From the NCBI GenBank assembly GCA_949538025.1, contig CATISI010000216.1, forward strand, positions 1 to 32,522: a DNA stretch of 32,522 nucleotides, given 5' to 3'. The notes under the pieces are model-generated. The model worked only from the letters and a program-made list of their open reading frames with translations, ran no database searches and was not told the DNA's origin. This document shows positions 594-29,769 of this stretch, piece after piece (positions within the stretch are counted from its first letter, which is position 1; each line of letters begins with the position of its first letter). Made by a program: the position numbers and the translations under genes. The stretch is from Candidatus Poseidoniaceae archaeon (GTDB lineage Archaea; Thermoplasmatota; Poseidoniia; Poseidoniales; Poseidoniaceae).

Positions 594-3500
594 TCATTTT
601 CGATGAACCCATTGCTGGGTTGATTGGTCTCGGTAGAACCATTGTTGGCTCCCTGATGGATGTTCAATCCACTCCATACCGTCACGCATCGCTCCACGTG
701 TCGCATATTGTGGATATTCAATGGAGGGAGCTTGTTCAATGCCATCGCCCTCTTTTCGTCGCATCATAATCAACCCAACCAATATGACAATGACCACTCC
801 TGCAACCCCAACAAGCATGTTTGAGGCGAGTGTATTTTCATTCGAACTTGCTCCTTTCAGTTCGTATTGTTCATCCGAGCAGCCTTTTGCATCAGCGATA
901 TGGACTGCATCTGTGTTTGCACATTCATCGTTTGCATCGTACACGCCATCACCATCTGAATCCATTTGCCATGTTGAGCATCCATTCGGCGCTACAGAAT
1001 CAGCGAGTGTGTTTGGACAAAGGTCGAATTTGTTGAAAATCCCGTCCTCATCATCATCTCGCTGATTCCATGAACATCCATATTCATCCACTGATTCGTT
1101 CAATTCAGTGTTTGGACATGTATCGATAGACGTACAGTTCGATGGACCCGACGAAGCGGCATCTCTATTGCAAATTAAATCCAAATCAGTATCGACTTGA
1201 AGATCTGAACAACCTGAATCATCTATTTCAGCCCCGATAGCGGTGACCTGGCACACATCCCAATAATCATTGATTGAATCTTGGTCGGAATCACGTTGCT
1301 TTCTGTCACACCCGTTGCTGTCCGCATCTCCGGGAATTTCTGTGTATTCACACAAATCATTGCCGTTGTCAACTCCATCGCCATCGCTGTCCTGTTGTGC
1401 CCAACTACAACCACTGCTGTCGATGCTTACACCAGTTGAGGTGCCCGGACACTTGTCTTCGCCCGTGCAATCGGATGGGCCGTCACTTGGAGCATCATCG
1501 TTGCAGATGCCATCGTAATCTTCGTCAACCTGACCTTCTGTACAGCCATTTTCATCAGTACTCACGCCTGCAGGCGAGTCCATACAAAGGTCAACAAAAT
1601 TCGCTGCACCGTCGCCATCATCATCGAGTTGTTCTTCACTGCATCCAGTTTCATCTACCGTCCATTGAATATCTGTCAATGGGCATGCGTCAACAGAGTT
1701 GTTGAACCCGTCACCATCGGAATCTTTGGCCATTGAAATGTAGTTATCGTTTCGACCTGGCTTGATGAGTACAACCTCCTCATCTGGGTGATACAATGGT
1801 GCAACAACATCACTTGACCTGTACACTTCGCTTTCAGCGAGAAAGCTGAGATTGCCCTCATCAATTGAATATGTCTTGAGAATCGTTGTCGCTCCCTCTT
1901 GATCATCATCACATCTCCAAGAGCAATATTCCAGCAATACAGTGACGTAAATCATTCTCTGATTCTTTGAGAATTGGATGTCAATAATTTCTGAATCGTT
2001 TTCTGTTACAGCAATAGTGGTTGCTATGGTTAATTTCGATGCTGAATAGGTCATGATTTCCTCATCCAAATGAAGGAGGAAGTGCCCCCCATCAGAGGTG
2101 AGTTGCATCGTATGTGAACCCCTCATAGCACGTGTCTCTACAAATTCATAATTCTGCGCGTCCCAGACGATAATCTGCGATCCATCGCCTCCAAAGAGCC
2201 AGTTACCGTCGTATGAGAATTGGAACAAACTGGGAGCAAAATTGCTGTCTTCTATCAATATTGACTGCATTGAACCGTCAAGCAGAATGGTCCGTACTCT
2301 GTACCCCGAATTGTATGCAGACAGCACAATCATGTTTCCATCAGGTGAATACGTTGTGCTGTCGGCCCTGACACCCCTACAATCTGAGAGAAACACTTGG
2401 AGTTCAGATAACACCTGAGTTTGTACATTCCAAGTTTGAAATTCACATTCCGAGTCATCGTTGCTTATGGTCAACAACAACTCTTGGCTATCCGGGCTCC
2501 ATTCGTAATCATTGAAGAAAAAATTTCCAGGTGCGTATATCGTGTACACAACTGAAAGATCCTTGTCCATGACAACAACTTCCCCATATGAGGGAGACTT
2601 TCTTGCAGCGATATAATTCCCATTTGGGGCATATTCAAGGTACGCATAATTTTTTGAATTTTCGATTTGCGTTCCGTTAAAATCCCACAAAATATTCTCT
2701 GGACAGTCATTGAATGGATCCAACGGGCATTCGTCGCTTTCATCACTCAACTCATCGCCATCTGAATCTCTCTGCACAGGCGAGCAGCCATTACGATCTG
2801 TCTTCGAATTGGTTGTGGAGTTGGGACAAACATCATCTGAGTCGGCTATTCCGTCACCATCTGAATCCAACAATTGAGAGACTGAGCAACCCTTCGCATC
2901 GACAGATGAGGTGTCCTTCGTGCGAGGGCAGTCATCGAATTTGTCATTGATTCCATCTCCATCGGTATCTCGTTGGCTCGATGAGCAACCCGATGTATTC
3001 GATTCCTCTTCAGTAGGGGTTTCTGGACACTGGTCTTTGGAATCATCTACACCATCTTCATCCTGATCTGGCATGTAGCCAACCAACCTCGTGGTATCGT
3101 AGCCACCAGATACGAGAACAAAAATTTCAGAATCATTAGCTGAAAAACTTGCGTCCTTGTTGCCATAGGACACGTCTAAATCTCGTTCAAAGTCCCAATC
3201 CATTGTTGAGTAAATTCCGATGTCACCATTCGAATAAGAACCAATTGTTTGGAGAAATGACGTTCCATCATGTGAAAATTTTGCCTCTCCTACTGTATAT
3301 TGGATTGTATCACTTAGCGTGTAGTCGTTGGTCGAATACACGTAGGAGCTTGAACCGTCGTTTGCTATGAGGGCATCACCATCAGGGGATGCGGCAAAGT
3401 CATACACTGGACTTTGGATTGTAAACGAACGTGTTAGCACCCATCTTTTCCCTGCGAGAGGGACGTCTTGATACTCGTAGACGTTCCCTGATCCATCCGA

Positions 3501-4139
3501 GCCTACGTACCAAATTTTTTCTTCGCTGGGATGGTGAGCCACCAATATTCCGGTAGAAGAAGCACCTTCAACTTCATTCCAATCAGGAGCTTCATACATG
3601 TGACCGCCGTTGTTGCCTGTGGCGACAATGACACGAGTGCTATCTCCGGACCATGTGACAGAATTGAAAAAGAAATTATCTGCTGTAGAGCGAGATTGAC
3701 TGACTACCTCCGTCCATGTCGCTGTTTCAACGACCGAGAATGCTTCTGGTGAGCGCAATGCCAGGTACTGCCCGTCTGGCGAAAAAATGACATCTCGCAA
3801 AGAATCGCTGTTCTGAATCGTATGGAGGAGGCTCAAATCCTGAGTGTTGTATACGATTACATCACCATTTTCATCATCGCAACCTTCTGAGTAAATGGCA
3901 AGCATGTCGAGAGTGCTAGCTGCGGTGATGATATAATCAGAACCATAGTAACTCCTACAGCCATCATTAACAAAAATTTCTCTGTGAATCACCCAATCTC
4001 CATAATGCACTGAACGCCCCGAAGTCGCTTGATTATCGTCTTTCTTCGGAGAAAAGTCATGCATGTGGATTGGACTTGTTGAACAAAGGATGAAGAGCAC
4101 TGAAAGAAATACAGGAAGAATCGAATTACGACTACTCAT
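594..4139 (-). CDS. Large surface protein: two beta-propeller-like domains, two thrombospondin type-3 arrays, C-terminal TM anchor
   Basis: I prefer the ATG at 4139 (about 1181 residues) over the track's GTG at 4184, because it places a good signal peptide (SSRNSILPVFLSVLFILC) directly at the N-terminus. Order: signal peptide; beta-propeller/WD40-like region with repeated SPDG-type turns (about 30-355); TSP3 array 1 (about 356-480); second propeller-like region (about 480-800); TSP3 array 2 with eight repeats (about 803-1085); one TM helix (about 1107-1126); RRK stop-transfer; and a short cytoplasmic tail with spaced Trp/Tyr (MEWIEHPSGSQQWFYRD) resembling a WW fold. The TSP3 repeats have the calcium-binding pattern DxDxDGxxDxxDxCP followed by a GC motif. 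The likely role is a Ca2+-stabilised cell-surface adhesin or binding protein; the ligand is unknown. It is divergent from trxB. Confidence 0.8.
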   Translation of the reverse strand: MSSRNSILPVFLSVLFILCSTSPIHMHDFSPKKDDNQATSGRSVHYGDWVIHREIFVNDGCRSYYGSDYIITAASTLDMLAIYSEGCDDENGDVIVYNTQDLSLLHTIQNSDSLRDVIFSPDGQYLALRSPEAFSVVETATWTEVVSQSRSTADNFFFNSVTWSGDSTRVIVATGNNGGHMYEAPDWNEVEGASSTGILVAHHPSEEKIWYVGSDGSGNVYEYQDVPLAGKRWVLTRSFTIQSPVYDFAASPDGDALIANDGSSSYVYSTNDYTLSDTIQYTVGEAKFSHDGTSFLQTIGSYSNGDIGIYSTMDWDFERDLDVSYGNKDASFSANDSEIFVLVSGGYDTTRLVGYMPDQDEDGVDDSKDQCPETPTEEESNTSGCSSSQRDTDGDGINDKFDDCPRTKDTSSVDAKGCSVSQLLDSDGDGIADSDDVCPNSTTNSKTDRNGCSPVQRDSDGDELSDESDECPLDPFNDCPENILWDFNGTQIENSKNYAYLEYAPNGNYIAARKSPSYGEVVVMDKDLSVVYTIYAPGNFFFNDYEWSPDSQELLLTISNDDSECEFQTWNVQTQVLSELQVFLSDCRGVRADSTTYSPDGNMIVLSAYNSGYRVRTILLDGSMQSILIEDSNFAPSLFQFSYDGNWLFGGDGSQIIVWDAQNYEFVETRAMRGSHTMQLTSDGGHFLLHLDEEIMTYSASKLTIATTIAVTENDSEIIDIQFSKNQRMIYVTVLLEYCSWRCDDDQEGATTILKTYSIDEGNLSFLAESEVYRSSDVVAPLYHPDEEVVLIKPGRNDNYISMAKDSDGDGFNNSVDACPLTDIQWTVDETGCSEEQLDDDGDGAANFVDLCMDSPAGVSTDENGCTEGQVDEDYDGICNDDAPSDGPSDCTGEDKCPGTSTGVSIDSSGCSWAQQDSDGDGVDNGNDLCEYTEIPGDADSNGCDRKQRDSDQDSINDYWDVCQVTAIGAEIDDSGCSDLQVDTDLDLICNRDAASSGPSNCTSIDTCPNTELNESVDEYGCSWNQRDDDEDGIFNKFDLCPNTLADSVAPNGCSTWQMDSDGDGVYDANDECANTDAVHIADAKGCSDEQYELKGASSNENTLASNMLVGVAGVVIVILVGLIMMRRKEGDGIEQAPSIEYPQYATRGAMRDGMEWIEHPSGSQQWFYRDQSTQQWVHRK
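890..1731 (-). repeat. TSP3 calcium-binding repeat array 2 (eight coding repeats)
   Basis: Eight in-frame degenerate repeats of about 30-45 residues follow the pattern D-x-D-x-DG-x-x-x-x-x-D-x-C(P) ... GC-x-x-x-Q. The third and sixth repeats are longer variants carrying an extra segment (ICNDDAPSDGPSDCT and ICNRDAASSGPSNCT). The array can therefore be read as short-short-long, short-short-long, short-short. It is a protein-coding repeat; each unit is expected to bind Ca2+ through its Asp side chains. Confidence 0.8.
2700..3070 (-). repeat. TSP3 calcium-binding repeat array 1
   Basis: Four in-frame TSP3 repeats (QDEDGVDDSKDQCP, DTDGDGINDKFDDCP, DSDGDGIADSDDVCP, DSDGDELSDESDECP), separated by GC-x-x-x-Q linkers, lie between the two propeller-like domains of the surface protein. 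They end in a shortened DPFNDCP unit. This array lacks the long variant repeats of array 2. Confidence 0.8.
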
Positions 4140-4249
4140 CGATTCAATACTCGGCTCTGCCCTACATAGGTGTTTAGCCGACACTTTGCGCGAGAAAACA
4201 GAGGGATAATGTTCAAGTCCATCGGGGTGTTGGTATGGGAGTGAGTCAA
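4140..4249. promoter_or_regulatory. Divergent intergenic region between the TSP3 surface protein and trxB
   Basis: This 110-nt gap must carry the promoters of two divergent genes. On the minus strand GGCTAAACACC lies about 30 nt before the ATG at 4139 and is a weak TATA candidate. On the plus strand GGGATAATG near 4202-4210 is the most AT-rich candidate, and GGAGTGAG lies just before the trxB ATG at 4250 as a ribosome-binding site. No strong inverted repeat was seen. Confidence 0.3.
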
Positions 4250-14614: not shown

Positions 14615-15196
14615 ATGGGAGTTATTGATGTCATTCTTTTGGCGGCAGGTCGCTCTTCTCGACTTGGTCAGCCAAAAGCCCTTGTTGATGTCGATGGTCG
14701 GCCGTTGATTCAACGACTCATGAACAGATTGAATCAATTGCATACAGAGGTGACGGTCGTCACCAACACGGACCTTCTCGCAGACATCATGCTACTCTGC
14801 CCATCGGCTCATGTCGTGCTCAACCCTGATCCAGAAAAAGGCCGGACAGGCTCCGTTCAATGTGGGCTTGCGAGCATTCTTGAACGGAATGGACGTTTGC
14901 CGAAAAAGGTGCTTTTGGTCCCTGTAGATCGGCCTGGATGGAGTGTTAAACTGGTCAGCAGTATTTTGGAATCAGAAACGAGCATATGCCCAGTTTGGAA
15001 CAATCGTGGAGGCCATCCACTGCTGATGGTTGGGGACGATGTCACTACTGTCTATTTGGCTGAGGGCGATGCTCCGCTCTCCTCTTTGGTTCAGCGAACG
15101 CCTCTACCTGTTGACTTTCCTTGGCTTCATCTCAATATCGATACTGAAGATAACTTGGACGATCTTATCAGAGCTTCCAAGGAAGATTGGTTCTAG
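14615..15196 (+). CDS. mocA: MobA/MocA-type molybdenum cofactor nucleotidyltransferase
   Basis: The protein starts VIDVILLAAGRSSRLGQPKALVDVDG, the nucleotide-binding signature of the MobA-like NTP-transferase family (LAAGxSxRxGxPK). It continues with VVTNTDLL, a Gly-containing RTGSVQCGL segment and LLVPVDRPG, the equivalent of the DxP metal motif. Length is 193 residues, normal for MocA/MobA. These enzymes attach CMP (MocA) or GMP (MobA) to molybdopterin. Because XdhC, which acts on the xanthine-oxidase family, lies 36 nt downstream, the CMP-forming MocA role is inferred. GGTGGT lies a few nucleotides before the ATG. It probably serves the molybdenum hydroxylase at 25.4-29.8 kb. Confidence 0.8.
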   Translation: MGVIDVILLAAGRSSRLGQPKALVDVDGRPLIQRLMNRLNQLHTEVTVVTNTDLLADIMLLCPSAHVVLNPDPEKGRTGSVQCGLASILERNGRLPKKVLLVPVDRPGWSVKLVSSILESETSICPVWNNRGGHPLLMVGDDVTTVYLAEGDAPLSSLVQRTPLPVDFPWLHLNIDTEDNLDDLIRASKEDWF

Positions 15197-15232
15197 GGCA
15201 AATCGTATGTGTATGTTCATCGAGGCACTGTT

Positions 15233-16099
15233 ATGACGGCGAGAGTTCTGGCATGGGTGTTGGAACAACTGCAACACAATTCGCCTGTTGTTCTTGCTAC
15301 TGTTGTCGGAACGAAAGGTAGCGTACCCGGAAAATCAGGAGCACGCTTGGCTATGAATCGGTCTCAGAATTGGGTAGGGACGGTTGGCGGAGCTGGTTTG
15401 GAACATCGAATCCTCAACCGTTGCAAAGAATTGCTTCAAGAATCCAAAGCAACATCTGAGGTGCACACCTTTGGCCTCAACAAAGGGGCGAAGGGCTATG
15501 AAGTGCAACCACTCGACTCACTTTGTGGTGGACAAGTCACCATTTCGTTGGAGTTGATGTTACCGATGCCACATATCTTGTTGATGGGAGGAGGGCATTG
15601 CTCGGAAGCCATCTCCAAATTGTTGCCAAAAAAAGGCTGGAATTTTTCCGTTCAAGACACCCGTGAAGCGTTCACAACCTCTGAACTCTATCCAGAAGCA
15701 ATCGAACGGTCCTATTCAACCGTTGAAGAATTCTTCAGCAACGAAACTGCAGGATCGCTCTCACGCTTTTCAGACGTTCTTTTGCTCGGTCATGATTATT
15801 CCGAAGACCTTGACAGGCTTCAACGGTTACTGCAACTCGCTGAAGGTGCGAATGTCTCACTTGACGGGAAAGTCTTCCCTCGGATCGGGGCGATTGGCAG
15901 CCGTTCGAAATGGAAATCGTTCACAGAGTCTTGCATCGATATGGGAATTCAGCCTTCTTCCCTCGACCGAGTGCGATGTCCAATCGGATTGAACATTGGT
16001 GCTGAATCGCCTGAAGAGATTGCGATTGCTGTCATTGCAGAAATTCTGTCGATGCACAAAAATGCTGACGTTCATGCCCCTAATTGGCGAGACCAGTGA
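15233..16099 (+). CDS. xdhC: XdhC/CoxI family molybdenum hydroxylase maturation factor
   Basis: XdhC proteins bind Mo cofactor, promote its sulfuration and insert it into xanthine-oxidase family enzymes. From the ATG at 15233 (288 residues) there is the N-terminal XdhC/CoxI domain (VVLATVVGTKGSVPGKSGARL, VGTVGGAGLEHRIL) and a C-terminal Rossmann domain (ILLMGGGHCSEAIS). Then come DVLLLGHDYSEDLDRLQ (usual THD-like motif), RIGAIGSRSKW and the family end motif VRCPIGLNIGAESPEEIAIAVIAEI. The order matches the full-length family. The track's GTG at 15209 is less likely than ATG 15233, which has GAGGCA just upstream. It lies between the mocA-like gene and the Old Yellow Enzyme gene, in one apparent transcript. 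Confidence 0.88.
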   Translation: MTARVLAWVLEQLQHNSPVVLATVVGTKGSVPGKSGARLAMNRSQNWVGTVGGAGLEHRILNRCKELLQESKATSEVHTFGLNKGAKGYEVQPLDSLCGGQVTISLELMLPMPHILLMGGGHCSEAISKLLPKKGWNFSVQDTREAFTTSELYPEAIERSYSTVEEFFSNETAGSLSRFSDVLLLGHDYSEDLDRLQRLLQLAEGANVSLDGKVFPRIGAIGSRSKWKSFTESCIDMGIQPSSLDRVRCPIGLNIGAESPEEIAIAVIAEILSMHKNADVHAPNWRDQ

Positions 16100-17723: not shown

Positions 17724-17832
17724 GGTTTTCCGATGAGAAAGCGGTTCTTGAAGTCGGCGTAGGATTCTTGATGGTGATGTTGCAGGCCAATGCATGGTCG
17801 ATGCTGGTGATGTTGCGATTGCTGTCGGCTCT

Positions 17833-17847
17833 GAGGTCTTTGACCTC
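17833..17847 (+). promoter_or_regulatory. Perfect 6-bp hairpin just before the subtilase start codon
   Basis: GAGGTC-TTT-GACCTC is a perfect inverted repeat ending 9 nt before the ATG at 17857. Its left arm contains the Shine-Dalgarno-like GAGGT. If the start is 17857, the fold could mask the ribosome-binding site. If the start is 17794, it is simply coding sequence. Seen in sequence; function is speculative. Confidence 0.3.
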
Positions 17848-17856
17848 TGGCTGTTT

Positions 17857-19170
17857 ATGCTCAAATTCCGTACTTGGCTTGTCGTCATGCTTCTCCTCGT
17901 CGTTGGAATGTCGTATTTTGCTATGTCCGGTTGGGAGACTGACGATGAAGGCCAGAAATCCTCATCATCGGTTAATTCTGATACAGGATGGAGGCATTAT
18001 TCTGTTGTAGCACCAGTTGATACAGGAATCAACGTCTACCACGATCACTTCCGAACGAGTGAAGTCTATCCTGATTGGTTGCTTGATTCCCTTGGCGTGA
18101 CCAAGACATGTGACATTACGTTTGATGGCTCGTGGCAAGAGCGTTATGAGGCCGACAAAGAATCCTGCTGGGATGATATCACGACTTCCGATATTGTGTA
18201 TTTTGCTGGAACAAAAATCATCGGAACTTCCCCTGATGGAGGCACGGACATCCATATTCTTGATGACCCTTCAGATGGACATGGGACCGCTGTTACGGGC
18301 GCAGTCTTGGATGCAAACCCAGATGCAGTCATTTTCTTCGTTGAAGGTTTCTCGACAGAAGCCGTTCTTGCGGCTTCAAATCAACCGCTTGTTGATATCA
18401 TCTCCACATCCTTCGGCGCCATAGGCTCGCTCCCAGTGCCAGGAATCGAGACTGGAACGTACGAAGCAGTCGTTGGCAACAACAAGATTCACACCGGTGC
18501 AGCTGACAATACACCTTCTCCTGCAGTTCAAGATGCTACAGCAGGCCCGCCTTGGTCGATCGGTATCGCAGGATACGCCGAGGAAGGAGACGATCAGAAG
18601 GAAACTATGAGTGGTTCATATCCCGATATCGCAGCAGATTGGACTCAAGTCTTGCCAAATCATGATGATACAGATGGCTATCATGAGACCTCCGGGACGT
18701 CCTTTGCAACGCCCCGCACGGCTGGGATTTTGTCGTTTATCCTGCAAGAGCTGCGAGATGAATTCAACGATGGAGGTTCTGGAGCAACCACAGAACGTGG
18801 TGGTTATCTCGTCAATGGAACGACCAGTGATGGTGAATCCTTTACCATCCGCAATTCAGAGGTTCGTAACGCACTGAACTTGTCTGCATGGTATCCATCC
18901 TTCACATCCTGGGACCCATTCTCAGGTACAACGCCTGTTTCACCAGTTGCACCATGCACACAAGTTGGTTGGGGCGTTGTCAATATGTCCAACATCGAAC
19001 CTATGCTGATGCACTTGAATGGAACACAACCTATGGACAACCGTCCCAGTGATGTCGTCCTGTGTATGAACATGAATCAAGAAGCCCGTGAGGCTTATTG
19101 GGGAGTATACCCTTCAGCACCCGACGAAGCCGTTGTCTCCGGCCGTGAAGCCATCTTCAGAGAAGAATGA
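17857..19170 (+). CDS. Subtilisin-like serine protease (S8), N-terminally anchored or secreted
   Basis: From the ATG at 17857 the protein (437 residues) begins MLKFRT and a strong hydrophobic helix (WLVVMLLLVVGMSYFAM), either a signal peptide or an anchor. The S8 triad is Asp55 (APVDTGIN), His142 (DGHGTAVTGAV) and Ser282 (SGTSFATPRTAG). The Asn in GAADN may form the oxyanion hole. There is no recognisable I9 propeptide and no C-terminal TM helix. Two Cys pairs (TCDITF/SCWDD and PCTQ/LCMN) could form disulfides outside the cell. The track's alternative start at 17794 adds an acidic 21-residue leader and is less likely. Its stop codon directly abuts the stop codon of the convergent giant membrane protein. 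Target unknown. Confidence 0.85.
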   Translation: MLKFRTWLVVMLLLVVGMSYFAMSGWETDDEGQKSSSSVNSDTGWRHYSVVAPVDTGINVYHDHFRTSEVYPDWLLDSLGVTKTCDITFDGSWQERYEADKESCWDDITTSDIVYFAGTKIIGTSPDGGTDIHILDDPSDGHGTAVTGAVLDANPDAVIFFVEGFSTEAVLAASNQPLVDIISTSFGAIGSLPVPGIETGTYEAVVGNNKIHTGAADNTPSPAVQDATAGPPWSIGIAGYAEEGDDQKETMSGSYPDIAADWTQVLPNHDDTDGYHETSGTSFATPRTAGILSFILQELRDEFNDGGSGATTERGGYLVNGTTSDGESFTIRNSEVRNALNLSAWYPSFTSWDPFSGTTPVSPVAPCTQVGWGVVNMSNIEPMLMHLNGTQPMDNRPSDVVLCMNMNQEAREAYWGVYPSAPDEAVVSGREAIFREE

Positions 19171-22100
19171 TCACAACGGTTCGAAGTCAAGGACAATCTG
19201 TCCAAGCATGTTAACACGGACAACTGGCTTGAAGCCTTCATGCGGCGTCATGGCAATGGTTCGAGTGATCTGTTCAATCGATTCCTTTGGTAGACGTACA
19301 TCGAATCCTTCCATCGTTTCGATGTAACCGATATTGTTCGTTGTTGCATTGCCAATTGGATTGACGATTTCGTTCAACTCTTCTTCGAGTTCCTTACCTA
19401 ATTTGAGTAGTTCCGTTTCTTCAGCATTCGTGCTGCCTTTCTCTTCAACAGACGTTTTCTCTGTCTTGATTTCGTGCTCCTGAATATCGTCGATTTCTTC
19501 TTCAGTGTCATCTTCAAGTTCATCTTCAAGTTCATCTTCATCATCCACAACCGTCTCAGGAATTGGCTGTTGAGGGACAACAGTATCCCCAAAGACTTGG
19601 GGGATCACAACATCCTGAACATCGAACATTGAGCGGCGTTGCATATACATGAATCCGTAGCCAAGTGCGAGCAAACCGGTGATTACGAGTGTTAGGCTTC
19701 TGAAGAGAACATCATCGGATCCATCCAGATAAATGTAAAGCGAAACCATCGTCAACACAGAACCAAACACACCGAGTCCACGTCGCCAACGAACTTGTGC
19801 TTGGGTTTCATCAAAGCCAGTAATAGCAAGCGCTGTCAGAATCGCTGCAGTAAGGAAGAACGCAATCTCGGTTTGGTCCTGTCCGAAGGCGTAAATGACA
19901 CCAGTCAAGGCAGCCACAACACCAGAGAAGCCCATGTATTCGATGAAACTGAAGAATTCCTCATCGTCGTTCCATGTGAAGATCTTTGAATCATAGATTC
20001 GATCTGTCTTCGAGGAGAGGTAAATCATCACAGCGCCTTCGACAAAGAAGATGCCTCCTATGAGGAATTGTCGCATGGATTCTGACCCAACCTCAAACTG
20101 ATGGATAAGGTTGGCTGCGGTCAATCCGTCGATGAGTGGGAGGAAGAGAATCGATACCTTGTCACCCTTTTGCACGGCTTCATAGGTAGCCCATCCACTG
20201 CCAGCAAGCATACCAAGGCCATTGACAACATCGAACGATAGAAGCAGCGTTGAAATAGCCAAAAAGCGTAGTTGAGTGTCCAAAGAGTATGGCATGAGCT
20301 TTTCCAGCCGTTCTTCATCTTGGACATTCATGCGCATGATGCCATAGGCTTCTGCCAACCATAGCACGTAGATGATACCACCTGAAAACAGCATCGAGTA
20401 TCCAAAGATGTCACCTGTGAAGTAGCCTCCATCAGCAAACCCGATCATGAATGAGAAGATGATTCCAACCGAAAGAAGTGGCATGAGGTTGATGTCTCCA
20501 CGTACCCATGCATTGGCGATTCCGAAGATACAAGCAACCAGTGGCAACCAAGACGCCGATGGAAGTACGGCCCAAATGGCGAACAGGAACCAAATCATAG
20601 GCAGGAACCATGGGAACGGATTGTCCACAACTTCTTTGCTTTGGACATCTCGAACGCTCCATGCAAGCGGCATCAACATATGCGCTGCGACAAGCATTCC
20701 AGTTACGCGCGTGAACCAAAGGATTCTAATTTCCGTGATGTCGGCAGGATTGTCGAAGAACGAATCAAGGAAGGCATGAGTAATACCATGGTCATAGGTC
20801 CAGTACATTGAGATAGTAGCAATAGGGGCTAGTAGCGTTACACCATGGTGTCGATACTGGATGGCCGTAATCGTAACAAGCCCGTACATGCTTAGGAAGA
20901 GCAGACCACCGGATTGGTCGAGCATTCCAATCACCAAGAGGACACAGAGCATAACTTGGTCAGCTTGACGGCTCAAATGATCTCGGTCAAGGCCACGTTT
21001 GTTAATCAGAACAAACGCTCCAATCGGTGCAGAAAGGAAGATGATATCGTACATGATCCCTGCTTTGAACAAACCATCCGTATGTTCAACATTGAACATG
21101 AGTGGGATGGATGAGGCTGCAATGATGAGGAGCATGAATGCACCAATCATTCTGCTTTGGGAAGAGATAACATCCATGGATTTGATTTCCCACATGACGA
21201 TACCGATTGGGATGGCATACAAACCGACCAGGTAGAATGCATCCCCGACCAAGACCTCCGGGTTGAGCATGCTAATGCCAATCGTGATTGCCAAAAGTGA
21301 GAATGCCATCGATATACGGCCAATTGAACCAATTGAACTCTCAGTCAACACATCTGCATCGTCGACTTCCTTGATGTACCATGCATTTGTTTCCGAATCG
21401 TAGGTGTAAGCGCCAGCGGCTTTCAACTCGAGCAGAGACATCAATTGGCCGATGTCCACTTCAACATCTCGTACGGTGTTGAACAGGCCGTATACAATGA
21501 GACCGAGCAGTACGAACTCAAGCGATACTCCATTCAAGGCCGAAAGTTGGTAAGAATCCGGTATTTCGAGCTTGCCAGTCAAAAGCAAACCAGTGCTGAC
21601 GGCCAAGGCTGTGATGAGAGCAAGTGTTGAGTTCCGACGTTCGATGTCATCCTTGTCCCGTGCTCTTAGCATCGATTCGTAGACCATACCAAGCAAATAA
21701 ATCACGAACATCCATGTTACAAACCAGTAAGCGGAATCCAAAATGGTCGAACTGAGTGCAATGAATGTGACGGTTTGGACGCTGCTCCAAATGGAAATCT
21801 TCTCCAATCGCCGAGCTGTTTCAGCAATGACAACAATGCCAATGGCAATTGCAATGTCCATCTCGATTTGATCCACGCCATATCCAATTCGGTCGCTGAA
21901 GAGGTAGGAAAACGATAGAGCAGAGATGGTGAAGTTTGCGACCCACTTACGCGTTGCTTCTGCAGCGAACAGCATGTAAGAAATCATGACCAATGCGATG
22001 ACCCAAGGGATGATGGCTTCGTCACCATCGAGCGTCCACAATGAGAATGCAAGTCCAATGGGCATTGCCGGGACTCTGTTTCTGTGCGTTGCAGGGAAGT

Positions 22101-23193
22101 AGGCACAGAGGACAGTAATCCAGAGCGCTACGGGAAGGGTGAGGAGGTTCTCAGCGCTTTGGTTACCCATTTCTGCGGGTTTTAAAGGACCGATGACGAG
22201 GTTGAAGTCTTCCAAACTTGCAATGAGCATCGCAACAACAACAACACCGATCATGAAGAAGGACATTCTTTCTGCCAAGGTTTGCTTTAATCGTTCATTT
22301 CCTGCTAAGAATCCCTGAATAATGATGATGAAGATGAGTAGTGAAAGCGCACCACCCTCGCCTCCCGGGGGTGCGTTCTCATTGAGTAATTCATAGACGA
22401 TTGGAATGATGCCAGAAACGACACTTACGACTGCGAAATTGATCGATTTATTTGACATCAATGCGCTATACATGGCAAGTCCACACAATCCAACGATTGC
22501 GGTTCCTAGCGGATAGGACACTTCGTACTCTGCCCACTCAATCCACGTTCCTACGCCGACAAGCAACAATCCGAGTGGAATGTAACTGGCAACAGCCCAG
22601 CCGAAGGAAGTATCTCCTCTGTACCGCTCGAGAATCTTGCGGTGAGCGAGCCACATGCCAAATGCACCAAGAGTTTGAGCATAGATTAAGTTCGCACTTG
22701 CAATGAATTCGCCCGTTTCTCCATCGACAGAACCGAGGAATGTGAATTTACTACCGTCAAATTCAAATTCAGACAGGGTAAAGTATCCTGCGAGATATCG
22801 GATGCCCCATAGCGTCCCAACAGCCATGAAAAAGAAAGCCATGCCAAGAAGATAGTTCTGTGAAATCATCAGATGAAAATCGTTCTTTTTCGCTTGCAAT
22901 TCTACCATGAAGAGGGCAATTCCAGCTGAAAGCAGCCCACCTCCGAAGAGGTATGCGAATTTTTCCTCACCGGTATTCTCAGCAAAGGCGATTCCAAGCA
23001 ATCCTGTCCAGATGGCAATCATCGCAACGCCGAACATCGTGATTTCAGTGAAACGTTCGAGTGAATCTCCATTTGTTTGTCCTGGGGCACGAACGATCAC
23101 AGGCTTGAATGGTATTTCTTGTTCATCCTTCGCATAAATTGCATCGTTTGCAATTGACACCATTTGCTTTGGTTTTCTCTGTGGTGCAGGCAT
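19171..23193 (-). CDS. Giant polytopic membrane protein (~35 TM helices) with acidic cytosolic-like tail; function unknown
   Basis: ATG 23193 (MPAPQRKPKQMVSIAND) gives about 1340 residues. A basic/Pro-rich ~45-residue N-terminus is followed by roughly 35 hydrophobic helices, interrupted near the middle by one soluble segment (LLELKAAGAYTYDSETNAWYIKEV, about residue 590). After the last helices (LTLVITGLLALGYGFMY) come an acidic low-complexity stretch (DEDELEDELEDD..., about 1200-1235), a charged Glu/Lys coil-like region, and a compact C-terminal domain containing GFDVRLPKESIEQITRTIA and VVRVNMLGQIVLDFEP. Very large predicted membrane proteins of the DUF2339 type have similar helix counts, but I see no diagnostic motif. 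It is divergent from one subtilase and convergent with another. No catalytic residues are evident. Confidence 0.85.
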   Translation of the reverse strand: MPAPQRKPKQMVSIANDAIYAKDEQEIPFKPVIVRAPGQTNGDSLERFTEITMFGVAMIAIWTGLLGIAFAENTGEEKFAYLFGGGLLSAGIALFMVELQAKKNDFHLMISQNYLLGMAFFFMAVGTLWGIRYLAGYFTLSEFEFDGSKFTFLGSVDGETGEFIASANLIYAQTLGAFGMWLAHRKILERYRGDTSFGWAVASYIPLGLLLVGVGTWIEWAEYEVSYPLGTAIVGLCGLAMYSALMSNKSINFAVVSVVSGIIPIVYELLNENAPPGGEGGALSLLIFIIIIQGFLAGNERLKQTLAERMSFFMIGVVVVAMLIASLEDFNLVIGPLKPAEMGNQSAENLLTLPVALWITVLCAYFPATHRNRVPAMPIGLAFSLWTLDGDEAIIPWVIALVMISYMLFAAEATRKWVANFTISALSFSYLFSDRIGYGVDQIEMDIAIAIGIVVIAETARRLEKISIWSSVQTVTFIALSSTILDSAYWFVTWMFVIYLLGMVYESMLRARDKDDIERRNSTLALITALAVSTGLLLTGKLEIPDSYQLSALNGVSLEFVLLGLIVYGLFNTVRDVEVDIGQLMSLLELKAAGAYTYDSETNAWYIKEVDDADVLTESSIGSIGRISMAFSLLAITIGISMLNPEVLVGDAFYLVGLYAIPIGIVMWEIKSMDVISSQSRMIGAFMLLIIAASSIPLMFNVEHTDGLFKAGIMYDIIFLSAPIGAFVLINKRGLDRDHLSRQADQVMLCVLLVIGMLDQSGGLLFLSMYGLVTITAIQYRHHGVTLLAPIATISMYWTYDHGITHAFLDSFFDNPADITEIRILWFTRVTGMLVAAHMLMPLAWSVRDVQSKEVVDNPFPWFLPMIWFLFAIWAVLPSASWLPLVACIFGIANAWVRGDINLMPLLSVGIIFSFMIGFADGGYFTGDIFGYSMLFSGGIIYVLWLAEAYGIMRMNVQDEERLEKLMPYSLDTQLRFLAISTLLLSFDVVNGLGMLAGSGWATYEAVQKGDKVSILFLPLIDGLTAANLIHQFEVGSESMRQFLIGGIFFVEGAVMIYLSSKTDRIYDSKIFTWNDDEEFFSFIEYMGFSGVVAALTGVIYAFGQDQTEIAFFLTAAILTALAITGFDETQAQVRWRRGLGVFGSVLTMVSLYIYLDGSDDVLFRSLTLVITGLLALGYGFMYMQRRSMFDVQDVVIPQVFGDTVVPQQPIPETVVDDEDELEDELEDDTEEEIDDIQEHEIKTEKTSVEEKGSTNAEETELLKLGKELEEELNEIVNPIGNATTNNIGYIETMEGFDVRLPKESIEQITRTIAMTPHEGFKPVVRVNMLGQIVLDFEPL
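19508..19540 (-). repeat. Short 12-nt coding tandem repeat (ELED acidic tract)
   Basis: TCATCTTCAAGT is repeated twice exactly and a third time partially (TCATCTTCA). On the minus strand it encodes the acidic (E/D)LED repeats in the tail of the giant membrane protein. Such units are prone to slippage, so tail length may vary between strains. Confidence 0.75.
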
Positions 23194-23326: not shown

Positions 23327-25330
23327 ATGGCCCGTGTGAACTCAACGAGATTGACCCTAACAATCCTTTGTCTTACCATGTTTGTGTTGCCCACCGTTCT
23401 CGCTACAGTACCTGTTGCACCCAATCAAGATTCAGTAGAACAAGGTTGGTGGGTTGAAACAACCGTCGACCGTGACGGAAACGGGATTGGGGATATGATC
23501 GAAGTGCACCAGAAGAACCCACTTTTCCTCGATGAGGATAAGACGCTTCCGTTAATCATCGACTTTTCATTCACGCCTGGCGATGCTGAAATCAAGATGC
23601 TTGAAGATGCTGTAGAGTACCGTCATCAATGGACGTTGAAAGGCATCGATGCGCTTGCCGGTCGAGTTCCTGTTGGCTACATCCTTGAAGCATCTCAACT
23701 CCCTGGCGTTGTCATGCTCGAACTTGATGGCATCCTTTCAGTCACAAACGGCGACGCTGCCGTCCTTCATGGCGTTGATACAGCCTGGGCAGAGACAGGT
23801 TACGACGGCTCGGGCACAACTGTAGCCATCATTGATACAGGAATTGATGGAAATCACTCCAGTCTTGACGATCAAGACGATGACCCAACTACGTACGACC
23901 CGAAAGTCATTGCATTCTACGACCCTGTCAACAACCCAAGTTTGACAAACGGCACTGAGGTTTTCCCATACGATGACCAAGGACATGGCTCCCATTGCGC
24001 CGGAACAACCGCTGGAACCGGTGCTCCAACCTACGACCATCCCGGTATGGCGCCACAGGCTTTCCTAGTGGGTGTCAAGGTTCTCGATGCAGGTGGCAGC
24101 GGATCTTTTGCAACCGTCATGGCAGGAATGGAATGGACCGTTGAGAAGCGATACGAATTCAACATACGAGCAGCATCAATGAGCCTTGGAGGCCCTGGCG
24201 CAATTGAATGGACTTCTTCTGAAGAAGATAGCGTCAACCGCTACGCAAACGAAATGGTTCGTGCTGGAATTGCTTTGTTCATCGCTGCTGGAAACAGTGC
24301 CTTCTCAGCACAGATCGGAACTCCGGGCAGTGCTGAGGATGCCATCACAGTCGGTGCTTTGGACAAGGATTCAAGCATCGCCATCTACAGTAGCCAAGGT
24401 CCGACAGAAGAAGGTCGAATCAAGCCAAACATTGCCTATGTTGGCTCCGATGTTATGTCGGTTGCTCACAACACTGGCGATGGTTATGTTGCTTTTAGTG
24501 GTACAAGCATGGCCACACCTGGTGCGGCTGGTGTAGCAGCACTGATGTTGCAAGCAAATCCAGATTTGTCTCCTTTCGATATTCGGAACATCATGCAAGA
24601 GACTGCGACCTATCGTCAGTGCCATTACATGGGTGCAAATGAACCGTGCGCTGAGGATTTTATTCCGAAGAACCGACAGAACAACGTCTACGGTCATGGA
24701 GAAGTCCGTGCAGTCGATGCGCTACTTGAGGCAGCTGAGCGTGATTACGCATTCAACTCGAACATCAGTGTCACCATTTCGACACCCGCAACACTCGATA
24801 ATCGAATCCATCTCGAGCGAGGCGATAGCATCGCCTTCGAGGTCAGTGAAAACATGGAAACCGTCCAATGGAGAAGCAACCATTTGCGCGACGATTGGTC
24901 CAACATTCACACATACGAGTCAGGAGACACGTCTGGAGAATTGTCCATCATTGACATCATTCATCAGATTGAGCATCTTCCTGGTATTGCCGTCATGGGC
25001 AATCACACCATCTCGCTGCGAGGTGTTCAGTACCAAGATGGTACAACATCTGCCTCACCACTTGTCACTGCGGAGATTATGGTCATGGACGATGATACAA
25101 ACCCGCCAACGGCGAGTGGTGAAGATGGGCTCTCAGCAACGACGATTGTAGTCGTTTCAGTCGGTGGTATCATTCTCTTCCTTGTCGTTCTCCTATTGAT
25201 TTCGACCATCTCCAGTCGAGAGGAGGGAACGCTTGCTGGTAAGGATCTCCAGACGTATCTCGATGCTCAAATCGTTGATGCGGTCGATTCCGATTTGTCT
25301 GAAAACCCGTTCTGGGAAGAAAAGGCGTAA
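23327..25330 (+). CDS. Subtilisin-like serine protease (S8) with signal peptide, propeptide and C-terminal TM anchor
   Basis: This 667-residue exported protease has a signal peptide (LTLTILCLTMFVLPTVLA) and a calcium-loop-like DRDGNGIGD motif near residue 45. A propeptide of the I9 kind (about 65-140) is followed by the catalytic domain with Asp170 (AIIDTGIDGNH), His220 (GHGSHCAGTTAG), oxyanion Asn323 (AAGNS) and Ser394 (GTSMATPGAAG). A C-terminal beta-rich region precedes one TM helix (IVVVSVGGIILFLVVLLLI, about 605-628) and a short acidic cytoplasmic tail. It is most like archaeal and thermitase-like subtilases. Likely role: cell-surface protein degradation for heterotrophic growth, or processing of surface proteins. 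It is divergent from the giant membrane protein; the molybdenum hydroxylase genes begin 56 nt downstream. Confidence 0.93.
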   Translation: MARVNSTRLTLTILCLTMFVLPTVLATVPVAPNQDSVEQGWWVETTVDRDGNGIGDMIEVHQKNPLFLDEDKTLPLIIDFSFTPGDAEIKMLEDAVEYRHQWTLKGIDALAGRVPVGYILEASQLPGVVMLELDGILSVTNGDAAVLHGVDTAWAETGYDGSGTTVAIIDTGIDGNHSSLDDQDDDPTTYDPKVIAFYDPVNNPSLTNGTEVFPYDDQGHGSHCAGTTAGTGAPTYDHPGMAPQAFLVGVKVLDAGGSGSFATVMAGMEWTVEKRYEFNIRAASMSLGGPGAIEWTSSEEDSVNRYANEMVRAGIALFIAAGNSAFSAQIGTPGSAEDAITVGALDKDSSIAIYSSQGPTEEGRIKPNIAYVGSDVMSVAHNTGDGYVAFSGTSMATPGAAGVAALMLQANPDLSPFDIRNIMQETATYRQCHYMGANEPCAEDFIPKNRQNNVYGHGEVRAVDALLEAAERDYAFNSNISVTISTPATLDNRIHLERGDSIAFEVSENMETVQWRSNHLRDDWSNIHTYESGDTSGELSIIDIIHQIEHLPGIAVMGNHTISLRGVQYQDGTTSASPLVTAEIMVMDDDTNPPTASGEDGLSATTIVVVSVGGIILFLVVLLLISTISSREEGTLAGKDLQTYLDAQIVDAVDSDLSENPFWEEKA

Positions 25331-25376
25331 TTCTTGGATTGGAGTGGTACCTTACATTCATAGACGGAGTTCCCAA

Positions 25377-25381
25377 GGTGA
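25377..25381 (+). promoter_or_regulatory. Shine-Dalgarno site for the 2Fe-2S subunit
   Basis: AAGGTGAG, with core GGTGA, lies 5 nt before the ATG at 25387. It decides the start against the track's upstream start at 25339, which has no comparable site. Confidence 0.6.
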
Positions 25382-25386
25382 GAAAC

Positions 25387-25989
25387 ATGGTCGGGAAAGA
25401 ACACGTAACGATGATTCCATCTTCACCGAAGACGATTTGGTCTGCGACGGTCAACGGTCATGACGTCCAAGCCATTGCTCCATCAAATGCCATTTTGCTC
25501 GACGTTCTTCGCGATGAAGTCGGCATGCTTGGTGTGAAGCGGGGTTGCGACTTGGGAACGTGTGGTTGCTGTGCAGTGCTCATTGATGGTGAGCCTCGCC
25601 TGTCCTGCTTGTGCCTAGCCGGACAAGTCGAAGGTCAAGCGATTACGACGGTTGAAGGGCTTGCAGATGGTGCACACCTCGCACCGATTCAAACCTGCTT
25701 TGCAACACACGGGGGTTCGCAGTGTGGATTCTGCACGCCAGGATTCCTCATGAGTGCTGAAGCACTTCTCAATGAAAACGAGAATCCAACACGGGATGAA
25801 ATCGCATGTGCTATCGAAGGAAACCTTTGCCGATGCACAGGTTATCAACAAATTGTCGATTCTATAGAGGCAGCTGCAGAAATCAAGCGAGGTGATGCGC
25901 CTGCATCATCTCCAGCAAGTGATCCTCATCCAAATCCACATCCAGAAGGGCCTGATGAACCATCGATGCCACCTGGCCATGCGAGGTGA
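25387..25989 (+). CDS. Molybdenum hydroxylase 2Fe-2S subunit (HcrC/CoxS type)
   Basis: This small electron-transfer subunit of a xanthine-oxidase family enzyme has 200 residues from ATG 25387. The plant-type ferredoxin cluster is GCDLGTCGCC...C (C-x4-C-x2-C-x11-C). The second helical-domain cluster is CGFC...CRC (C-x2-C-x31-C-x1-C), both intact. The first ~30 residues precede the usual family start (VNGHDVQAIAPSNAILLDVLRD). The C-terminus is extended by ~30 residues rich in Pro, Ser and His (DPHPNPHPEGPDEPSMPPGH), unusual for this ~160-residue family. Its TGA stop lies within the Shine-Dalgarno site of the next gene, so translation of the two is probably coupled. Confidence 0.9.
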   Translation: MVGKEHVTMIPSSPKTIWSATVNGHDVQAIAPSNAILLDVLRDEVGMLGVKRGCDLGTCGCCAVLIDGEPRLSCLCLAGQVEGQAITTVEGLADGAHLAPIQTCFATHGGSQCGFCTPGFLMSAEALLNENENPTRDEIACAIEGNLCRCTGYQQIVDSIEAAAEIKRGDAPASSPASDPHPNPHPEGPDEPSMPPGHAR

Positions 25990-25991
25990 TC
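25983..25991 (+). promoter_or_regulatory. Shine-Dalgarno site overlapping the stop codon of the 2Fe-2S subunit
   Basis: GAGGTGATC matches the archaeal anti-Shine-Dalgarno at nine consecutive positions and contains the TGA stop of the small subunit. It precedes the ATG at 25994 by 2 nt (4 nt counting from GAGGTGA). It fixes the start of the large subunit and argues for an archaeal host. Confidence 0.65.
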
Positions 25992-25993
25992 CC

Positions 25994-28798
25994 ATGGCCG
26001 GAGGATATCGACAACAACCAGGGGCATCTTCGGGTGAAACCCGTAAGGACGGAAAGCGTGTGGCAGGGAAGCAAAAGTTCCCTCCGCCAGGTTCGGGTGG
26101 CTCCCGGCCGACAATGGCTCCCCGTAATCTTGATTCTATTCCAGAATCTGTTGGTGGGAAAGAACCCCAACCAGCTGGCTCACACATCCACGATAGGTAC
26201 CGAACGGGTACCGAAGTTGGAAAATCAAGAGCGCTTGTTGATTCCCATGCAAAGGTAACCGGACAAGCGTGGTACGGCGACGATGTTCGTCTTCCGAATG
26301 AAATCATTGGCAAGATCCTTCGTTCACCGCACCATTATGCCAAAATCAAATCCATTGACACCTCAAAGGTTGAAGCCCTCCCCGGCGTCCTTGCAGTGGC
26401 CACTGGAGCCGATGCACCAAACACATTCGGTGTATTGCCTGTAACGAAAGACGAACACGCCATGGCCGTTGAGAAAGTACGCCACGTTGGCGATCTCGTT
26501 GCCTGTGTTGCTGCCGTTGACGAAGCGACAGCCATGGAAGCCCTCAACCTGTTTGAAATTGAGTGGGAAGTTTTAGACCCTGTCTTCGATCCAAGAAAAG
26601 GATTGGAGGATCAAGATGAACCAATCCACTGGCGTGGAAAGTATCACGTTGGAACCACCAACGTTCAGAAGCGTGTGTTCCAAGAATTCGGCGATCGTAG
26701 CCTCGTCGACGACCCAACAGCATCATCTCACGGAAAATGGCGAATGGAAGGCGTCCATCACGGTTTCACGGAACCTCACGCAGTCGTTGCCCACTGGGAT
26801 CCAAACGGTCGTCTGCAACTCTACACTCCGCAACAAGTACCGCACTATGCACATCGAGCACTCTCAACGGTCCTTGAGGTTCCGATGCATCAAATCAATG
26901 TCATTCGTACCTTCGTTGGTGGAGGATTTGGTGGCAAATCCGACCCATTTCCGCACGAGATGTGCGCAGCCATTCTCTCTCGCAAAGCAGGGCGTCCTGT
27001 TCGAATCAATTTCTCTCGAGAAGAGGTTTACTGGATCAATCGAGGCCGACACCCAAGCTACATTGAAGTCAAGATGACAGCGGATGAAGAGGCCCGAATT
27101 TCTGGCTTTGATATCGATGCTCTGATTGACGGTGGCGGATTTGCTTCATTCGGTCACGTCACCTCTTACTACAACGGTGTTCTCGCAACAGCTCCGTACG
27201 AACTCGGCTCGTTCCATTACACTGGCGCACGTGTTTGGACAAACAAACCAGCAAGTGGTGCTATGCGTGGACACGGGGCTGTCAATACCCGTTGTGCAGT
27301 TGAAGTTGGTCTTGATGAAATGGCTGAACAAATGCAAGTCGACCCAATCGACCTACGCTTGGCGAATCTGCTCCCTCCGCACAGCAGAACCATCTCTGGT
27401 TTCCGCATCACCTCCAACGGAATGAGAGAAGCATTAGAGCGCGTTCGAGATGGTTCAGATTGGGATACAAAATTCCGTCAAATGCCACTCGGTAAAGGAA
27501 TCGGAATTGGCTGTGGTTTCTTCATTTCAGGATCTGGTCTACCAATCCACTGGGATCCAAATCGATTCCCACATGCGACCGTCCACATTCAAATCGATAT
27601 GGATGGAGGTGTAACGGTTCACACAGGTGCTGCCGATATCGGACAAGGATCTACCACAGCCGTTGCACAAGTTGTTTCCGAAGTGCTTGCTCTCCCCATA
27701 GAGATGATTCACGTTCGCTCGCATGAAAGCGACACAAGTCCAGTTGACCTCGGTTCCTACTCAAGCCGTGTAACCTTCATGAACGCCAATGCTGCGATTC
27801 GAGCAGCACTTGACATTCGCGAGAAACTCCTCAATGCTGCTTGGGAAATGCTGGGCTATCACCCAGATGTTCTCGTTCTCAACGATCGTCGAATTTACTA
27901 CAAGCACGATCCAGCTGTCGGCGTATCTTATCTTGAAGCACTCCATAAGGCGCAGGAGGACAAGGGCTCACTGATTTCGAGTGGTGCATACCGCTCTCCT
28001 CCAATGGGTGGTGTTCACAAAGGTGCAGCAGCAGGTCTTGCTCCAGCATATTCGTTCTCTGCTTACGTTGCTGAAGTCGATGTTGATATCGAAACAGGCC
28101 TCGTATCATGCACCAATGTTTGGGCTGCACACGACTGTGGTAAGGCACTCAATCCACTCGCCGTGGAGGGACAAATCATCGGGTCTTGTCACATGGGGCT
28201 TGGCCAAGTCCTTTCGGAGAAGATGGTGTACGGACGGACAGGACATTTGCAAAATCCAAATCTCTTGGAATACAAAATCCCGTCCGTTCACGAAATGCCT
28301 CATGTAACGCCAATCATTGTTGAATCATCGGACCCAGAAGGGCCATTCGGTGCGAAAGAAGCTGGTGAAGGTCCTCTCTTGCCAATCCTGCCTGCTGTGG
28401 TGAACGCAGTCTACGATGCGATTGGCGTTCGCATCCGCGAACTACCGCTCACCCCGGATGTTGTTTGGAAAGCCATCTCGGCGAAGACGAGATCGCTCGG
28501 CGGTATCGATGAAACGGAACTTCCCTCTCCTCGCTTGGAGCACAGCCCCTTGCAAGCAACACTCGTTGCACGAGGTCAGGAGCACAGGAAGCGGGACCGC
28601 CGCCGACAGCGTAGCGAAGATACCAGCGCATATGTCAACGGTGTGCTGTTTGGATTTGACCCAGACCGTCCGCTCGAAGACCAGGTTGATGGATGGAAAT
28701 CCGCTGTTGAACCCGTGCCTGAACAGCTGGCTGAGCTTGGCTTAGCAGGAAAGGCTTGGCTGAAGAAGGAGCAACGCCAAATGAGAGGTGGACAATGA
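25994..28798 (+). CDS. Molybdenum hydroxylase catalytic (molybdopterin) subunit, 4-hydroxybenzoyl-CoA reductase / xanthine oxidase family
   Basis: This 934-residue Mo-cofactor subunit starts at ATG 25994. After an ~85-residue Gly/Pro/basic extension the family domain begins (ALVDSHAKVTGQAWYGDDVRLPN). Mo-cofactor motifs: FVGGGFGGKSDPF, ASGAMRGHGAVNTRCAVE, TGAADIGQGSTTAVAQ and FGAKEAGEGPLLPILPAVVNA, where Glu792 is the catalytic glutamate position. GAMRGHG and the EPHAVVAHW/QVPHYAHRAL segments resemble HcrA more than CO dehydrogenase; the CO dehydrogenase AYRCSFR loop is absent. The C-terminus carries ~90 extra residues with a basic RKRDRRRQRS cluster. Subunit order 2Fe-2S, Mo, FAD is distinct from coxMSL. 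Substrate is not proven: an aromatic or N-heterocyclic CoA thioester or similar is possible. Confidence 0.85.
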   Translation: MAGGYRQQPGASSGETRKDGKRVAGKQKFPPPGSGGSRPTMAPRNLDSIPESVGGKEPQPAGSHIHDRYRTGTEVGKSRALVDSHAKVTGQAWYGDDVRLPNEIIGKILRSPHHYAKIKSIDTSKVEALPGVLAVATGADAPNTFGVLPVTKDEHAMAVEKVRHVGDLVACVAAVDEATAMEALNLFEIEWEVLDPVFDPRKGLEDQDEPIHWRGKYHVGTTNVQKRVFQEFGDRSLVDDPTASSHGKWRMEGVHHGFTEPHAVVAHWDPNGRLQLYTPQQVPHYAHRALSTVLEVPMHQINVIRTFVGGGFGGKSDPFPHEMCAAILSRKAGRPVRINFSREEVYWINRGRHPSYIEVKMTADEEARISGFDIDALIDGGGFASFGHVTSYYNGVLATAPYELGSFHYTGARVWTNKPASGAMRGHGAVNTRCAVEVGLDEMAEQMQVDPIDLRLANLLPPHSRTISGFRITSNGMREALERVRDGSDWDTKFRQMPLGKGIGIGCGFFISGSGLPIHWDPNRFPHATVHIQIDMDGGVTVHTGAADIGQGSTTAVAQVVSEVLALPIEMIHVRSHESDTSPVDLGSYSSRVTFMNANAAIRAALDIREKLLNAAWEMLGYHPDVLVLNDRRIYYKHDPAVGVSYLEALHKAQEDKGSLISSGAYRSPPMGGVHKGAAAGLAPAYSFSAYVAEVDVDIETGLVSCTNVWAAHDCGKALNPLAVEGQIIGSCHMGLGQVLSEKMVYGRTGHLQNPNLLEYKIPSVHEMPHVTPIIVESSDPEGPFGAKEAGEGPLLPILPAVVNAVYDAIGVRIRELPLTPDVVWKAISAKTRSLGGIDETELPSPRLEHSPLQATLVARGQEHRKRDRRRQRSEDTSAYVNGVLFGFDPDRPLEDQVDGWKSAVEPVPEQLAELGLAGKAWLKKEQRQMRGGQ

Positions 28799-29769
28799 TG
28801 TTGATGCCCCCATTTAATCTTCATCACCCGAAGACCGTTGAGGAAGCGTGTGAACTAGCAGCGACATTCCTTGCCAACAAGGAATCTTTTGATTGGGTCG
28901 CAGGTGGTACTGATTTGCTACCGAATTACAAGTGGCACATCAACGCCAAGACACATGTGATTTCTCTGGCAAATATACCAGGTCTCGATACCATTTCTAT
29001 GCAAGAAATTGGTGCAATGGCTCGTTTGGGTGCATTGACCACATCGGAAAATGTGCACCCTCTCATAGCATCCGCTGCTAGCAAAGTTGCCTCTTCATTG
29101 ATTCGAAACAACGCAACACTTGGAGGAAACATTTGCCTCGATACGCGCTGTTTCTGGTTCAATCAAAGCGAAGATTGGCGCCGTTCAATCGACTGGTGCC
29201 ACAAGGAAGATTGTGGAACGGGTTCGGATTGTCGAGTTATTCCAAATCAAAACACACTCTGTGTAGCAACTTACCAAGGCGATTTGGCTCCATCTTTGAT
29301 GGTGCTTGAGGGAACCATTCACATTATCGGTCCAAACGGACCACGAAGCCTGCCTGTTGATGAGTTCTTCCAACTCGATGGAATTACTCGAAACGTGCTT
29401 CAGGAAGGTGAATTTATCCTCAAGGTGACCTTCCCAGAAAACGTCGCCAACAGAAAGGGCTCCTACAAGAAACTCAGAGTTCGAGAATCGTGGGATTTCC
29501 CCGAGGCAGGTGTTGCCTCTTCGTGGATTTCAGGCGATCCGTCCTCTCTTCGAGTTGCCTCTACAGCTTTGGAATCCATTCCACGCTCACACCAAGAGGA
29601 AGTTGATGCACATGGAACCTCCTTCTCGAAGGAACACATTCCTCAACTCTCTGAAGCGATTATGAAATCCATCAAACCAGTCAACAATACGGCATTGCCT
29701 CCACGATATCGCAAATCAATGGTTCGAGTTCTAGCAAAGCGCAGCCTTCGAGAAATTCTTGGTGATTGA
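28795..29769 (+). CDS. Molybdenum hydroxylase FAD subunit with [4Fe-4S]-type cysteine insert (HcrB-like)
   Basis: The start at 28795 overlaps the previous stop (ATGA), with AGAGGTGG just upstream, so it is translationally coupled. The 324 residues include FAD motif VAGGTDLLPNYK, IRNNATLGGNICLDTRC, and the CO dehydrogenase flavin C-terminal domain (SYKKLRVRESWDFPEAGVA). Between the FAD halves is a Cys-rich insert, with Cys at 114, 119, 135, 140, 146 and 156 and an NQSEDWRRSIDWC segment. This closely resembles the insert of HcrB in 4-hydroxybenzoyl-CoA reductase, which binds an extra [4Fe-4S] cluster; the 16-residue spacing between the first two ligands (C119, C135) is the same as I recall for HcrB. 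Most FAD subunits (CoxM, XdhB) lack this insert. Confidence 0.85.
   Translation: MMLMPPFNLHHPKTVEEACELAATFLANKESFDWVAGGTDLLPNYKWHINAKTHVISLANIPGLDTISMQEIGAMARLGALTTSENVHPLIASAASKVASSLIRNNATLGGNICLDTRCFWFNQSEDWRRSIDWCHKEDCGTGSDCRVIPNQNTLCVATYQGDLAPSLMVLEGTIHIIGPNGPRSLPVDEFFQLDGITRNVLQEGEFILKVTFPENVANRKGSYKKLRVRESWDFPEAGVASSWISGDPSSLRVASTALESIPRSHQEEVDAHGTSFSKEHIPQLSEAIMKSIKPVNNTALPPRYRKSMVRVLAKRSLREILGD

Follow-up and report, generated by a model that had tools for sequence, protein, structure and literature searches.

The only functional data that we found in the literature for the DUF2339 family concern Arc3A of Pseudomonas aeruginosa. Arc3A has "35 predicted transmembrane domains" and no residues indicative of enzymatic activity; it prevents the build-up of LPE and monolysocardiolipin under attack by a phospholipase effector, through a route distinct from LplT/Aas (PMC8926400). 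The role of Arc3A against lipase effectors was confirmed by a second group (PMC12663445). In many bacteria aas adjoins arc3, and DUF2339 genes lie beside acyltransferase genes (PMC8926400). Among the sequences analyzed here, a DUF2339 gene of Sphingobium likewise adjoins a phospholipid acyltransferase gene. The protein described below resembles Arc3A in being very large and polytopic, with about 35 predicted transmembrane segments and no catalytic motif. Its family is not individually described in the literature as far as searched; the accessible text of general papers on Poseidoniales reports lineage-specific hypothetical and membrane families and does not name it (PMC9258230). The literature searched likewise yielded no experiment on a protein from Poseidoniales.

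The window, by which we mean the whole stretch of 32,522 nucleotides that was analyzed, belongs to a Marine Group II archaeon (Poseidoniales) with a fragmented genome of 1.88 Mb. The giant gene begins with an ATG at position 23193 and encodes 1340 amino acids followed by a stop (Table 1). Its coordinates agree with those of a preliminary description of the locus, which named no strand; the gene lies on the minus strand. The preliminary description had announced a very large polytopic protein of about 35 helices, and family-averaged hydropathy bears this out, with 33 segments at a threshold of 1.0 and 35 at 0.8. Between the window protein and its 93%-identical relative in the nearest species, dS is 0.73 and dN is 0.042, and orthologues extend over the full length at identities down to 17–25% (17–20% in the second family considered below). 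These two observations rule out a chance open reading frame; the gene is real and under strong purifying selection. Seventeen columns are invariant in an alignment of 29 members: Y114, W129, R132, P206, W217, W397, Y406, R415, W417, V418, T422, D759, G763, W1136, R1138, P1323, and G1331.

Table 1 Features of the giant membrane protein gene, in coordinates of the window.
Feature	Position	Strand	Evidence
Giant membrane protein CDS	19171..23193	-	ORF, orthologues, purifying selection
N-terminal cytoplasmic segment (predicted), residues 1-51, conserved MxxP start	23041..23193	-	hydropathy, loop charge
Membrane region, residues 52-1184, about 33-35 hydrophobic segments	19642..23040	-	hydropathy, loop charge
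Soluble loop, residues 572-626, predicted cytoplasmic	21316..21480	-	hydropathy, loop charge
Conserved membrane hairpin (putative), residues 745-782, motif LxLDxSGGLL	20848..20961	-	alignment, loop charge
C-terminal membrane module, residues 1086-1188, WRR..G..G...GLxAxGxGxLYxxR	19630..19938	-	profile match
Acidic variable linker, residues 1193-1290	19324..19617	-	tail comparison across members
Private C-terminal domain, residues 1291-1340	19174..19323	-	tail alignment and profile

Poseidoniales comprise two families, here designated f1 and f2, which probably correspond to Poseidoniaceae and Thalassarchaeaceae. Orthologues with an open frame of 1240–1440 amino acids were found in 55 of 58 f1 genomes and in 12 of the 40 f2 genomes searched. 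The three f1 genomes without the giant are 65–80% complete, and occurrence in f2 is patchy, genus by genus. Apart from a single linker or coil match, the family had no match outside Poseidoniales in 194 Thermoplasmatota genomes, and viral contigs contained no relative. The exception, a match in genome G135 (E = 4e-10), lies in a different protein, within its coil or linker stretch, and we disregarded it. Two records need comment. The contig L004 (CALDQY010000143.1) is titled Rhodobiaceae bacterium and codes for the archaeal giant (90% identity); it is therefore a mis-binned or mislabelled Poseidoniales contig. The f1 genome at L058 (G053:C37) has an additional copy, of f2 type, on a contig of 5 kb; this is most likely contamination.

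From TM1 to TM22, loop charges alternate as expected from the positive-inside rule: loops before odd-numbered segments are rich in lysine and arginine, and those before even-numbered segments are poor in them. This pattern predicts an N-terminus on the inside, and the C-terminal tail is likewise predicted to be cytoplasmic. The MxxP start is kept across the family. The soluble segment that the preliminary description placed near residue 590 is present as the predicted cytoplasmic loop listed in Table 1. Two stretches, residues 745–782 and 972–1012, have positive loops on both sides and look like short or re-entrant hairpins; in the first, for which this flanking charge raises the possibility of re-entry, D759 and G763 are invariant among the 29 aligned members. 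AlphaFold2 models based on an alignment of the window protein and three close relatives gave a mean pLDDT of 30 for the membrane part and 44 for the C-terminal part, too low to be of use with so shallow an alignment.

The suggestion that the soluble loop divides the membrane part into two anciently duplicated halves found no support. Profile–profile comparison of residues 45–590 with residues 618–1190 gave a probability of 5.4%, compared with 2.6% for a reversed control, a signal that we regard as no better than background. By this comparison, the loop does not separate two homologous halves, and we rejected a two-fold internal duplication. The best internal repeat score pairs the stretch near residues 972–1012 with the similar hairpin at 745–782 (30.1 bits versus 27.9 bits for the reversed control).

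The acidic ELED tract, charged stretch, and small C-terminal domain noted in the preliminary description are all present. Across 49 members, the linker ranges from 60 to 134 amino acids with a median content of 33% D+E and 5% K+R; its sequence and length vary while its acidity is constant. The last ~50 residues are conserved, with an invariant proline and glycine, and their pattern suggests a strand–helix–strand–strand fold. No relative of this domain was found in Pfam or the PDB. Weak similarity to ribbon–helix–helix proteins (Arc PF03869, E = 0.14; AmrZ, E = 0.16) was set aside because the tail pattern runs on into a strand hairpin rather than a second helix. We also rejected the idea that the tail is a module shared with other proteins: its profile matches the giant alone, always at the C-terminus and, with few exceptions, at one place per genome. 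The preliminary description had likened the tail to a docking module. A conserved domain on an acidic tether could indeed dock, and docking or sensing is a fair guess at its role, but the domain is private to the giant.

Searches of the giant against Pfam, NCBIfam, PHROGs, PADLOC, and PDB sequences returned nothing credible, in line with the preliminary description, which recognised in it no motif of a transporter, enzyme, or secretion protein. The DUF2339 profile PF10101 matched controls and none of the 29 aligned giants at E ≤ 1, and it had no match in any Poseidoniales genome. hhalign gave no N-terminal alignment above control for the N-terminal membrane segment of DUF2339 (G-x-W-L-x-K-x-G...). 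Judged by the PF10101 profile, the giant is not a member of DUF2339. Further differences set the two apart: the N-terminal halves cannot be aligned, the giant family is confined to Poseidoniales, and the soluble domain lies at the C-terminus of the giant, whereas DUF2339/Arc3A proteins have an N-terminal coiled-coil or lipidated region.

Giants of other Thermoplasmatota provide an indirect connection. Four of these (L096, L105, L106, and L107) match PF10101 with E values of 1e-34 to 6e-8. A profile built from the four, scanned blind over 390 genomes, recovered more giants together with residues 1092–1188 of the window protein (E = 4e-6 per genome, or about 1.6e-3 when corrected for 390 genomes), a match that covers only ~100 of the 1340 residues and is restricted to the genus of the window. 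It falls in the C-terminal membrane module of Table 1. In a controlled rerun, the window protein scored 20.7–21.7 bits, L011 19.7, and L001 17.3, compared with 11.5 bits for the best reversed or locally shuffled control domain. hhalign placed the C-termini of the giant and the archaeal DUF2339-type giants in register with probabilities of 13–65%, versus 0.1–0.6% for controls. Eleven bacterial DUF2339 proteins from plasmid records, gathered to deepen the comparison, weakened rather than strengthened the match. Used alone, they gave a top hhalign alignment at the same C-terminal place (2.3%; reversed control, 1.5%) and no hmmsearch match to the giant; a profile of f2 giants had no match. The DUF2339 C-terminal segment (WxR..G...K...D......R..SF.G.G..L...Y.Y) is thus matched weakly, C-terminus to C-terminus, through archaeal intermediates and not above control through bacteria alone. 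The preliminary description had held that a confident full-length match to DUF2339 would make the protein ordinary; such a match is absent, and what exists is a weak one at the last ~100 membrane residues.

Similarity at this same place extends to L105, L107, L132, L133, and L134, giants of 1043–1681 amino acids that share with the window protein their many helices and an extramembrane region that is charged or acidic. L107, L105, and L132 match PF10101 (E = 4e-15 to 5e-7), and L133 and L134 have no Pfam match. All five differ from the giant in having the extramembrane region at the N-terminus and no C-terminal domain. The comparison is suggestive of a distant, as yet unproven kinship that involves the final ~100 membrane residues only. 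Among the DUF2339-like giants, the one at L105:939-5981 has N-terminal CxxC motifs resembling a zinc ribbon. That at L132:1328-4888 has visible repeats of membrane units of roughly 110 amino acids, so internal duplication may be a way in which this superfamily grows.

The giant gene is transcribed alone, within a gene order that is widely kept in f1: NCX, acyl-CoA dehydrogenase, MobA, XdhC, Orn, (S8), giant, S8, and XDH, with S8 genes lost or flipped. Because most of these neighbours are unrelated in function, we read the arrangement as general synteny. In the window, the flanking subtilases occupy 23327-25330 and 17794-19170; the larger ends with a membrane helix and a ~45-amino acid tail, and its gene changes orientation between genera while remaining adjacent. 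A complete operon for a xanthine dehydrogenase-type molybdenum hydroxylase (FeS, Mo, and FAD subunits) lies at 25339-29769, about 10 kb from MobA-like and XdhC maturation genes (14615-16099); the operon and these genes are conserved together across the family. Elsewhere in the window (594-4184, minus strand), a secreted protein of 1196 amino acids carries eight thrombospondin type 3 repeats and has halves that resemble beta-propellers, with a membrane helix at the C-terminus plus a short W/Y/Q-rich tail (WIEHPSGSQQWFYRDQSTQQWVHRK).

A ~540-amino acid PF01553 acyltransferase lies 2–5 kb from the giant gene in the Poseidoniales genera g11 and g17 only. At L038:12287-13909 and L047:12520-14214, in two genera of different families, a ~540-amino acid protein is encoded between the giant and the XDH operon; it has an acyltransferase domain at its N-terminus and hydrophobic segments towards its C-terminus. 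PF01553 (PlsC-type acyltransferase) occurs in one to three copies in 98 of 98 Poseidoniales genomes, including those that lack the giant, and its presence therefore does not track the giant; PlsY (PF02660) was found in 0 of the 98. The control genomes matching PF01553 were all bacteria. Co-distribution of the giant with acyltransferases is uninformative for this reason.

Several other roles can be weighed against these observations. The giant could be a lineage-specific membrane scaffold whose helices anchor and cluster while the tethered domain recruits a cytosolic partner. Such an arrangement would suit a tail domain that is private, always terminal, nearly always present once per genome, and carried on a linker whose acidity outlasts its sequence. 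We nevertheless consider it rather unlikely, as a pure anchor would need no invariant residues spread through the membrane part (Y114, R132, W217, R415, W417, D759, G763, W1136, and R1138) and no partner gene is consistently adjacent beyond general synteny. The same residues D759 and G763, set in a hairpin between positive loops, invite the idea that the giant belongs to a new family of transporters or channels in which this hairpin contributes to the translocation site, and the similar hairpin near 972–1012 yields the best internal repeat score. That score barely exceeds its reversed control, however, Pfam and NCBIfam contain no matching transporter family, and 35 segments are far above the number in known carriers, which to our knowledge use far fewer. 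A transport role seems quite unlikely to us.

A lipid- or glycan-modifying membrane enzyme that has diverged past recognition would explain invariant charged residues near the membrane faces (R132, R373, R415, and W1136–R1138). With neither a catalytic motif nor a match to glycosyltransferase or acyltransferase models in Pfam or NCBIfam, this explanation is very doubtful. Genomic context raises one more, namely that the giant acts with the neighbouring secreted subtilases in the export, anchoring, or regulation of extracellular proteases: most f1 loci have a membrane-anchored S8 subtilase beside it, and many have a second one convergent with it. S8 genes are absent beside the giant in f2 loci and in several f1 loci, the larger gene changes its orientation, and conservation extends to more distant neighbours (XdhC, XDH, Orn, and acyl-CoA dehydrogenase) as well. 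The adjacency is thus better ascribed to general synteny; subtilases show no consistent co-occurrence with the giant, and we regard a functional partnership as highly improbable.

We favor, tentatively, a role in membrane-lipid upkeep similar to that of Arc3A. This reading draws on the likeness to Arc3A, the weak match of the C-terminal membrane module to DUF2339-like giants of other Thermoplasmatota, the adjacency of DUF2339 and acyltransferase genes in bacteria, the acyltransferases near the giant in g11 and g17, and the G3P backbone predicted for lipids of Poseidoniales, which possess a G3P dehydrogenase (PMC6461757). We rate it as possible, though somewhat improbable. The giant would be the Poseidoniales version of a DUF2339/Arc3A-kind protein of the cytoplasmic membrane, with about 35 segments and cytoplasmic N- and C-termini, and would lack an enzyme active site. 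Within the membrane it would act on glycerolipids that are damaged or of the lyso type, by binding, sequestering, or moving them; the C-terminal domain, on its acidic tether, would serve for docking a partner from the cytosol or for sensing the state of the lipids. Common descent with the DUF2339-like giants is indicated, if weakly, for the last ~100 membrane residues; the lipid function and docking are argued purely by analogy. The fuller proposition, that archaea with predicted G3P-backbone lipids possess in the giant an order-specific counterpart of Arc3A lysolipid protection, equipped at the C-terminus with a docking domain of its own, we consider unlikely as a whole.

Marine Group II archaea are uncultured and rank among the most abundant archaea in surface ocean waters. 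The giant is nearly universal in one of the two families, takes up more than 1300 residues per copy, and has gone without annotation. The presence of PF01553 without PF02660 bears on whether Poseidoniales make acyl-glycerol lipids. If the giant is a distant Arc3A-type protein, it would offer an archaeal test case for the handling of damaged lipids by giant polytopic proteins and would bear on the unsettled lipid make-up of Marine Group II archaea. Were the analogy correct, giant polytopic proteins would serve to control lipid damage in both prokaryotic domains.
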